Assembly (NCBI GenBank): GCA_015488755.1 | Contig: WFNB01000097.1 | Location: 1 to 62,122, forward strand | Reading direction: 5' to 3' | Length of the DNA stretch: 62,122 nt | DNA from: Gammaproteobacteria bacterium | GTDB lineage: Bacteria; Pseudomonadota; Gammaproteobacteria; GRL18 | Shown: piece after piece, positions 3,001 to 51,308 of the stretch | Numbering within the stretch: the stretch's first letter is position 1 | How the letters are laid out: every line of letters begins with the position of its first letter | Position numbers and translations under genes: made by a program | Notes under the pieces: model-generated | What the model was told of the DNA's origin: nothing | What the model saw: the letters and a program-made list of their open reading frames with translations, nothing else | Database searches by the model: none

Positions 3001-6000
3001 GATCCTATCATCCAATCTTCAGCAGCAGCTAAGTTATAAGTACTTGCATCCGCAGAAACGACCCCATTTTTATTCAGTAAGCCATTAATTGTTAATTGAT
3101 CGGTAGCAGACAAGGTCAGAATAAATGTTGTATCAGAGCTAATATCAACATCAAGTGTATCCGTTAGTGAATACGTAGCACCCCCTTCACCAGTAAAGGA
3201 AAACAATGAGGCATCAACATCATTAGCAACGCCACTATTACTAACAAAATTAGTACCAATAACAAGGACTTGCCCAGTACTCACATCATAAATACTGCTA
3301 CTAATAGTGGGTGTAGAATAATTAGACACCGTAATATTATTAGCACTGACATCCGCCACATTTATGGCACCATCGGCACCCACAGCCCAATCTTCGGCAG
3401 CAGCTAAGTTGTATGTTGTACCACTTTCTGAGGCCGTACCATTTTTATTCAGTAATGACTCAACATGAGTTAAATCAGTACCACTTAAGAGTAGACTAAA
3501 TTGTGTACCAGAGGTGATCTCTACATCTGTGGCACTGCTTAAAGTATAACTTGCACCACTTTCTCCAGTAAAAGTGAGCTTAGAGACATCAATGTCATTT
3601 GCCGCGCCTGCAGCGTTTAAAAAACCTGTCCCAGTGACGACAAGTGTATTCGTATTATAGTCATAGCTGGCACCATTGATTATGGGTATGGCAACATTAC
3701 TGGCTGTTATAGCATTACCCGTCGCATCAACCACCACCACAGCTGAATCAGCTCCCATTGCCCAGTCTTCTGCTGCACCAAGATTGTAAAGTGTGGCATT
3801 AGTTGAGCTGCTGCCATCCTTATTGATAATCTGATTGACGGCCACCTTATCCGTGGCACTTAACAAGACACTAAAAGAAGTTGCCGAAAGAATATCAACA
3901 TCAGAGGAATCTGTTAAATTATAAGTTGTTCCCCCTTCTCCAGTAAACGTCAGCATAGAGACATCAATATCATTCGCTGGACCTGAAGACTTTAGATAAT
4001 TATTACCTGTAACCACCAAAATACCCGTAGCAGCATCGTATGTCACCGTATTAATGACCGGTATAGCAACATTATTCACAGTGATACTATTACCCGTGGC
4101 ATCAATGACTGCCACACTTGGATCAGCTCCCCTGGCCCAGTCTTCAGCAGCCGCCAGATTATAGGTCGTCACATCATTTGATGTCAGCCCATTTTTATTC
4201 ATAATTTGGTTAATTGCGGCTTTATCTGTGGCGCTGAGTGTAACGGTGAAAGCAGTACCACTAGTGATTTCAATATCGGCACTGTCGGTTAATGTGTAAG
4301 TCTCATTGGCTTCACCTGTAAAGGTTAATTTTGAGACATCAATATCATTACTAGCACCAGAAATGTTAAGAAAACCCGTCCCCGTTACCACTAAGGAACC
4401 TGAATTGGCATTATAAGTAACGCTATTGATAACAGGTGTCGCCACATTACTTACCGTAATACCATTGCTCACATCAGAAATATCAGTATTGGCAATAACT
4501 GTATTCCAATCATCTGCTGCCGATAAATTATACGTCGTTGCACCGGTTGATGCCGTCCCATTTTTATTAATAATTTGATTAATAGCTGATTTATCTGTGG
4601 CACTGAGTATCAGGCTAAACTCAGTAGCAGAGCTAATTTCAACGTTAGCCGTATCGGTTAGAGAATACGTTGCACCACCCTCACCTAAAAAAGTGAATTT
4701 ATTGGCGCTAATATCATTATTCGCACCGCTTGCTTTGACAAAATTTGTTCCTGTAACAACTAATGCCCCGGTAGTGGCATTATAGCTGGATGAGCTAATA
4801 GATGGGGTTTGTACATTACTCACAGTAATGGCATTACCCGTTAGGTCAGACGTATCACCTGCCGTTACATTTGCAATAAAGTCATCACTAGCGGCTAAAT
4901 TGTAACTACTTGCATCAACAGCTAAGGTACCATTCTTATTTAATAAACCGGCAACATTAATTTGATCGGTGGCATTTAAGGTAATTGAAAATGTCGTTGC
5001 ATTGGTTATTTCAACATCCGCTGAACTTAGGGTGTAGCTTGCCCCACCTTCACCACTGAGTGTTAGATTAGCCACATTGACATCATTGGAAGCACCTGAT
5101 TTGGCTTCAAAAGCAGTACCTGTTACAGTCAAGATATGAGTGTTTGCATCATACGCCGCAGCAGTAATTGCCGGTGTTGGAGTCAACACCGGAGCAGTCA
5201 CAAACAAATTGTCAATTTCAGGATCCAGATCTGGGCCAGTAATGCGGATCTCATCAATATTTTGCCAATTAGTATCCGCATTAACATCAATATGATAAGT
5301 TAAAAGACCATCTGCAATAGCAATAGATGCACCACTCACAGCAATATTATCACGGTATCCTGTTATCACAACACCATTAAGATTTGAGCTATAACCTCTA
5401 CCATAATCAAAACTCATCAACTTGAACTCTGAACCATCTGTTGATTTTACTGAAAGCTCCGTCATAGCCCCTGCCCCAGACGACACAGCTTGAAGAGAAT
5501 TACCTGTAAAGTCTAGAGCAGCTCTAACATAGATGCTAGTGGTAGCACCAACATCATTTGAAGTATAAGTCCAGCCATCATTATCCCATGTGGTATTACT
5601 TGGGACAGGATCTGAAACAGCAACATCATCCTCATAGTCCTCATTAGCAACCAATAAAGCACTGCTATAGGCACTCAGTGTTGCTGTCTCAAGCGCCACA
5701 TTTGTTTCAATAGTGCCTCCAGCATTAGCCTCTAATACCCAATCACCATCCAGTAAGGCAGAACCTGTAATATCAGTAGATGCAGCAATATCAGCATGAG
5801 TTTTCTCTGATAATTGTTGAATAAATGTTTGCCCCTTAATTCCTTGTGCAACATTACAGCCGTAAAGTAAAATATCTCCTGTTTCTGATAAAGATTCTCC
5901 CCAAATTGTCAGTTGTTCCTGATAGTTATCAATAGAAGAAGCCTCTAGAATTGTCGAACCTAAAGCAAGTTGACCACTATTACCATGTGAAAATAATTGA

Positions 6001-49996: not shown

Positions 49997-50221
49997 CTAA
50001 TCGTTAGGGGGATGTACTCTGTGCAAGGGGAAGCCCCCTAAAACCACTGGCGCATCGATATCACCGGCCATTTGTAATTTTATTCCCGTAATATCTGAGA
50101 TGATTTTGGCATCTTCATTCATTACTTGCATAAAAGCACCCACTTGCATGAGCAGTAGCGTATCAGATGACTCAAGCTTAAGTTCCTGATAGCGTTGCAT
50201 TAATTTTTTTGATACAACCAT
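49997..50221 (-). CDS. MutS domain-I-like small protein (DGR accessory MSL type)
   Basis: 74 residues from ATG 50221, preceded by AGGAAAAAAG; an upstream-extended frame to 50272 would run through the GC hairpin. LMQRYQELKLESSDTLLLMQ, VGAFMQVMNEDAKIISDITGIKL and VVLGGFPLHRV match the N-terminal mismatch-recognition domain of MutS (Q-Y-x2-K, G-x-F, EDA, GxP-x-H) but nothing else of MutS is present. Small MutS-like proteins of this kind (MSL) are known accessory genes of diversity-generating retroelements. It sits directly after the putative variable region, as expected for that role. Confidence 0.75.
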   Translation of the reverse strand: MVVSKKLMQRYQELKLESSDTLLLMQVGAFMQVMNEDAKIISDITGIKLQMAGDIDAPVVLGGFPLHRVHPPND

Positions 50222-50318: not shown

Positions 50319-50460
50319 CTATTGTCCACCTCGTACTGGCCAGACATAATCGTTACCCGTCTTAACGTCGTTGCCGACAACGCCATCGCCGAGGTCCACG
50401 GACCAAGCGTCGCCGGGAAGGCCCACGTAGGTAGTAGAGGACCAGTACCAACTAGACTGC
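50319..50460 (-). other. Putative DGR variable region (VR)
   Basis: The 26 codons at 50349-50426 (reverse strand) have 50 G/C of 78 bases (64% by hand count), in an AT-rich genome. Adenines are scarce (12 of 78), no codon ends in A, and most end in C or T (GGC, CTT, CCC, GAC, TCC, CTC, GTT and so on). This fits a template full of AAC/AAT codons whose A positions were changed at random. Conserved Trp/Tyr framework residues (SSWYWSSTTY, YVWPVRGGQ) flank it. VR borders are approximate because no template repeat is available. Confidence 0.75.
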
Positions 50461-51248
50461 ACCGAAGCAAACGGGTGCCCCGTTGGCAGAGCTGGATTGA
50501 CACGTTGAAAATCAATCAGACTGTGCAATTCTTTAACATTAGGTAAACGCCAGTCACCGGCACTGGAACCATCACTCAGACCACAAGCACCATTGGCTAA
50601 CGTGTTGGCATCGGTTAATGCGGTGGCAAAGTTATGAGTACCAAAACAATTGGCATTTTTTAGCCAGATAAGACCCGTACTATTATCGGTGACGGTACCA
50701 TCAGAATTATCGCTAAATCGGGGGCTGGCATGGGCTATGCCTTTTTTTAAGTCACCATCTTGTCCGGTACCGGCACAGGCAATAACACTACCTGCCGTGT
50801 TATAACAAAGATTTTGGCCGGTTTGGGGGACGGGTGCTGGATTTGCGGTACCAGTATTTAAACCCCAATTGCCACTTTGCAGACTCCAGAAGGTTTTGCC
50901 TGTGACTACATCGCCAGTGGTGGCACCATTGCCATTATCACTTACTGGTGCTTTGCTCATAACCTCATCCAATGTATGACCCGTTGCACCAGGGCCTGCA
51001 CCCGGTTCACTAAAGGTCGTGGTGCGTTTAGTGCCAGTAGCTCCCGTAGCCAAACGATTATAGACGGACTCTAGACTATACATGGCACTACCGCTATTAG
51101 TCACCGCTGCAGGAGAATCCAGACTGCCGGCGAAAACAGAGAGAGGGAGTAAGCTGAACAGTAAAAAAAAGAATAAAGAAAAAGGGCAAGAGGAAAAAAC
51201 CTTACTTAACGGGGTTTGCGTTAGTGTGTATTGCTTGTTGCTTGACAT
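50319..51248 (-). CDS. DUF1566 (C-type-lectin-like) DGR variable protein
   Basis: 309 residues. A signal peptide (CPFSLFFFLLFSLLPLSVFAG) precedes a Thr/Gly-rich segment (45-160) and a DUF1566/Lcl C-terminal domain: FSDNSDGTVTDNSTGLIWLKNANCFG, DWRLPNVKELHSLID, SSWYWSSTTYV, VWPVRGGQ. This fold displays its C-terminal loops as a ligand-binding face and is a common DGR target. RBS AAAGGAG precedes the ATG. The last ~35 codons differ sharply in composition. It is probably exported to the envelope or outside; the ligand is unknown. Followed by the hairpin and MSL gene. Confidence 0.85.
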   Translation of the reverse strand: MSSNKQYTLTQTPLSKVFSSCPFSLFFFLLFSLLPLSVFAGSLDSPAAVTNSGSAMYSLESVYNRLATGATGTKRTTTFSEPGAGPGATGHTLDEVMSKAPVSDNGNGATTGDVVTGKTFWSLQSGNWGLNTGTANPAPVPQTGQNLCYNTAGSVIACAGTGQDGDLKKGIAHASPRFSDNSDGTVTDNSTGLIWLKNANCFGTHNFATALTDANTLANGACGLSDGSSAGDWRLPNVKELHSLIDFQRVNPALPTGHPFASVQSSWYWSSTTYVGLPGDAWSVDLGDGVVGNDVKTGNDYVWPVRGGQ

Positions 51249-51276: not shown

Positions 51277-51308
51277 CATTATAACACTACAACATTATAA
51301 CACTACAA
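51277..51308 (-). repeat. 16-bp tandem repeat carrying twin -10 boxes
   Basis: Two perfect copies of CATTATAACACTACAA (plus-strand reading) at 51277-51292 and 51293-51308. On the minus strand each contains TTATAATG with a TATAAT -10 box, 29-45 bp before the DUF1566 start. Copy number could tune expression of the variable protein. Confidence 0.8.

Follow-up and report, generated by a model that had tools for sequence, protein, structure and literature searches.

The window analysed here, a stretch of 62,122 nucleotides, carries what looks like a decayed member of a known mutation machine, the diversity-generating retroelement (DGR), and so resembles a 'molecular fossil' rather than a working element. 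It is probable that a gene for a secreted lectin-like protein is the remnant of such an element, its variable end having been frozen after the loss of the 3′ end of MSL (a MutS domain I-like DGR accessory gene), Avd, the template repeat (TR) and the reverse transcriptase (RT). The features concerned are, in window coordinates:

50319..51248, minus strand: DGR target gene, encoding a secreted Lcl_C/DUF1566 protein of 309 aa with an N-terminal signal peptide (PF07603 match, predicted CLec fold)
50325..50447, minus strand: variable repeat (VR), YWSSTTYVGLPGDAWSVDLGDGVVGNDVKTGNDYVWPVRGG, placed by gapless alignment to the template of the related locus L129
50251..50270, minus strand: GC-rich hairpin, GCAGGGGG-TTTC-CCCCCTGC, 48 nt past the target stop codon
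49997..50221, minus strand: truncated MSL gene, 74 aa (PF01624, E 8e-8)
50000..50026, no strand: inferred deletion junction, from comparison with L129
47468..49936, minus strand: gene for a WxENIGW-repeat secreted protein of 822 aa with Calx-beta and DUF4214 domains, the next gene after the truncated MSL

The target protein matches the Pfam Lcl_C family (PF07603) over residues 184-306 (E 5e-27), its score of 94.8 bits lying above the curated cut-off of 34.9, and the signal peptide claimed in an earlier sequence-only reading is present at the N terminus of the 309-aa open frame, as read from its sequence. The same reading had proposed a C-type-lectin fold, and this is supported by modelling: for the AlphaFold model of the Lcl_C domain (pLDDT 88), the top PDB match is 8q4e, the C-terminal domain of Legionella Lcl, followed by C-type lectins. 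These matches came from a fold search, while a search of solved structures with the target sequence gave no match. The VR sits at the 3′ end of this predicted C-type-lectin-fold domain. The gene is intact, and its product is probably still made and presumably still functions as a secreted ligand-binding lectin-like protein. Upstream of it, a perfect 16-bp tandem duplication, CATTATAACACTACAA, occupies positions 51277-51308.

The variable codons of the VR lie mainly at 50349-50432, and its conserved 3′ end reads TATGTCTGGCCAGTACGAGGTGG. The last 40 or so codons of the target are GC-rich, with NNC and NNT codons set between fixed framework residues; at 50349-50426 the count of 50 G+C in 78 bases (29 G and 21 C, with 12 A) given in the sequence-only reading is exact, in a window of 38.3% GC. 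The low adenine content that the reading had taken as a mutagenic footprint is real but not special, since the part of this gene that encodes the signal peptide is poorer still (5 of 78 bases against 12 of 78), and low adenine by itself was dropped as evidence for a DGR. The codon pattern fared better. All 16 AAC columns of the L129 template are NNY in the window VR (16/16), with an NNY background of 0.548 (p ~7e-5 unconditionally, and 0.013 when conditioned on the residues), and when this spacing of codons was tried at 5300 other placements in the open reading frames of the window, 3 showed the pattern.

Intact relatives were sought by scanning bacterial genomes with the target protein, which yielded 79 loci. 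The most informative, L129 (contig JAAELQ010000248.1, isolate Bpl_9), has the order WxENIGW gene, Lcl_C target, hairpin, MSL, Avd, TR and RT, with a target 64% and an MSL 62% identical to their window counterparts. Its MSL is 121 aa long (PF01624, E 2e-13), its bAvd-like protein falls below the Pfam cut-off (E 1.5e-4), and its RT, which reaches the contig end, is of the DGR type. Lcl_C-type template/variable pairs were also found in L070, L099, L100, L102, L116, L120, L123, L130 and L170.

Over 41 codons the window VR and the L129 template can be aligned with no gap, and at codon positions 1 and 2 mismatches fall on 24 of the 40 template adenines and on 2 of the 42 other bases (odds ratio 30, Fisher p=4e-8), a test that is indirect, the template being from another bacterium. 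Mismatches spread over G, C and T would have spoken against a DGR; here they are concentrated on adenines of the homologous template, and the earlier proposal of a DGR target with a rewritten C terminus holds. Third positions also differ at 16 of the 41 codons, as expected for divergence. Over the same 41-codon core, the VR of L129 differs from its own template at 16 of 40 adenines and none of 42 other bases at positions 1 and 2, and nowhere at position 3. Among 66 Lcl_C tails and templates, TR-adjacent VRs score 16/16 or nearly so for NNY, against 8-13 for the relatives that match least. The residue pattern is nevertheless in part a property of the Lcl_C family, most members of which vary at these lectin positions, many of them with no DGR nearby, and for this reason the codon pattern alone is insufficient. 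The case for a DGR-written tail is completed by the remnants of MSL and hairpin in the right places, and taken together, these comparisons of sequence make it very probable that a DGR wrote the tail.

The hairpin has an 8-bp GC-rich stem and a 4-nt loop, lies in a region with a DNA-fold z of -3.3, and has a stem pattern that occurs once in the genome; L129, L115 and L180 each have a similar hairpin at the corresponding site, 33-39 nt past the stop codon. In phage DGRs the hairpin loop is described as GRNA (PMC3240598), and the DGR criterion is a GC-rich 7-10 bp stem with a 4-nt GRNA loop, placed 4-34 bp downstream of the VR, whereas in the window the loop on the target's sense strand is TTTC. 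The hairpin noted earlier is real and unique, but differs from the described form in its loop and lies 48 nt past the stop codon; a GAAA loop read on the plus strand was rejected, since the target's sense strand reads TTTC. The hairpin has no T-run and was not called as an intrinsic terminator.

The claim of an adjacent MSL gene stands in reduced form, as a small MutS-like open frame next to the target whose homology stops after GGFP (about 50027) and gives way to a short unrelated tail and a stop codon. Beyond GGFP, the L129 MSL continues with SGLDAYVGKLVRAGHSVAV... (SGLDAYVGKL), as does that of L160 in its second piece (SGLDAYVGKL; part of the L160 MSL is masked). MSL proteins with PF01624 are listed as DGR accessories (PMC10053308). 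A search of 230 relatives with the window MSL gave matches that, among those listed, look like ordinary MutS genes, mostly in long open frames; plasmids and phages gave MutS and other proteins at <40% identity, viral contigs gave none, and the whole locus had no DNA match among plasmids. At the MSL break (50000-50045), the minus-strand sequence GGGGGCTTCCCCTTGCAC resembles half of the post-target GTGCAGGGGG hairpin, a likeness that may be a clue to how the deletion formed.

Between the junction and the next gene, an L129-type cassette would have the rest of MSL followed by Avd, TR and RT, all of which are absent here. The target would originally have belonged to a DGR of the type Lcl_C - hairpin - MSL - Avd - TR - RT, active in its own lineage or in a donor of the locus, in which error-prone reverse transcription of an AAC-rich template would have overwritten the gene's 3′ end and left the adenine-to-N pattern. 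A later deletion would then have carried away Avd, TR, RT and the 3′ part of MSL, bringing the remainder up against the WxENIGW-repeat gene, and with the local machine gone, the variable tail could no longer be rewritten and would be frozen. A single deletion that began within MSL and ended upstream of the WxENIGW gene would be the simplest history of the locus.

The locus may instead have been acquired horizontally, already without TR and RT, in which case no DGR activity ever took place at it in this species; this is conceivable but doubtful. No full-length relative of the target was found in the other genus and family genomes searched, the nearest lying in other bacterial groups, and a sister genome holds only the N-terminal domain and the WxENIGW partner, all of which would fit transfer. 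However, no transfer junction was seen, and loss in place would just as readily leave a truncated MSL directly next to the target.

The source genome is a 3.5-Mb draft of 122 contigs rated 100% complete. No RT was found in it by Pfam RVT_1 (PF00078), by a DGR RT query or by a profile of 11 DGR RT sequences, and a protein search found no Avd. The Pfam search was positive in three control genomes; the 11-sequence profile and the Avd searches were run without positive controls of their own, although similar queries recover DGR RTs elsewhere. With searches of these kinds, RTs turned up in 13 of 370 relatives and in 20 of 31 genomes that carry Lcl_C, and the matches listed include none from the genomes of the genus and family that were covered. 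A DNA search with the VR gave no TR in the genome, only matches of 14-17 nt, of which those inspected were unrelated; the best candidate (17 nt, contig C108) is a chance match in an unrelated frame with no TR-like pattern. The lack of a template in a closed genome had been named as grounds for refutation, and none was found here, though the genome is a draft and not closed. There is no support for a working DGR in this genome as assembled: RT, Avd and TR were not found in the 122 contigs and MSL is broken.

An active DGR in trans, with TR and RT elsewhere in the cell (in an unassembled region or on a plasmid) still rewriting the VR, is unlikely on the same grounds, an assembly rated complete being without RT, Avd and TR and the MSL being broken, and we infer that no unassembled copy of TR or RT exists. 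In favour of such an arrangement, remote and trans DGR targets are documented (PMC10907252, PMC8144416), the VR retains all 16 NNY columns with no visible drift, and a TR-RT pair could fall in a gap of the draft. It is very improbable that the target is an ordinary Lcl_C adhesin whose ligand-binding residues were varied by normal selection with no DGR involved, for although the family positions are naturally variable in many relatives with no DGR nearby, the MSL and hairpin remnants lie at the exact cassette positions, the NNY score is complete, and the framework is near-identical to that of a real template, with the changes sitting on template-A positions.

A frozen DGR remnant also has company among the related loci. 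L120 (8753-9515) is a recently broken DGR, with an intact TR and two VRs whose mismatches fall on adenines only (20/20 and 19/19), an RT that lacks about 90 core residues, and no other DGR RT found in its genome. L139 keeps target and Avd, its sequence picking up again only at the final few residues of the TR, with no local RT and RTs elsewhere in the genome; L160 has target and MSL followed by an apparent transposase-type open frame; and L118 and similar loci have the target and the WxENIGW gene only. L120, L139, L160 and the window would seem to represent stages in one sequence of decay.

The WxENIGW gene often adjoins Lcl_C targets, with or without a DGR, in the window and in L116, L118, L119, L122, L129 and L130, and also in L131, L136, L144, L146, L155, L170 and L182; any match to the window's WxENIGW protein was found in only 3 of 30 related genomes. 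In the same-genus sister genome G007 (L209, 3389-6088, minus strand), the N-terminal domain of the target has a WxENIGW gene close by and neither an Lcl_C domain nor a DGR, an arrangement that suggests that the C-terminal domain of the target is exchangeable. No DGR RT was found in the Lcl_C genomes of L114, L118, L125, L128, L132, L136, L137, L140, L144, L161 and L164, mostly drafts in which absence is weak evidence, and several of these carry VR-like tails. Tentatively, Lcl_C targets beside WxENIGW genes might gain and lose DGRs repeatedly, each serving as a temporary diversifier until one successful variant is retained as a fixed binding protein, with the window at a late stage.

Large DGR surveys begin from the RT, so that they miss orphan targets left after loss of the machinery. 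Such targets can be flagged by the codon signature, in which AAY template columns are still NNY, and loci at different stages of decay offer a way to test whether variants made by a DGR persist and become fixed once the machinery has gone.

Among known systems, the Legionella Lcl C-terminal domain (8q4e) is the structure closest to the predicted fold and shares the family name with the target, but is only 20% identical to it, and the gene in the window, for its part, sits beside remains of a DGR. The prototype DGR of Bordetella phage BPP-1 has in common with the window a C-type-lectin target, a variable 3′ end, adenine-directed substitutions and a hairpin after the VR; it is complete and active, with Avd as its accessory and a sense-strand GAAA loop, whereas the window has an MSL accessory and a TTTC loop. 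Degraded and trans-acting DGRs have already been described in Thiohalocapsa (PMC10907252), where in PB-PSB1, as in the window, targets outlast damage to RT or TR; that genome holds other DGRs, some acting in trans, whereas none was found in the genome of the window. L129 keeps a full MSL, Avd, TR and RT, in contrast to the target, hairpin and 65 MSL residues that are left in the window, and the two have in common an Lcl_C target, a hairpin in the same place, a target-adjacent MSL, the framework that the L129 template encodes and a WxENIGW gene nearby.
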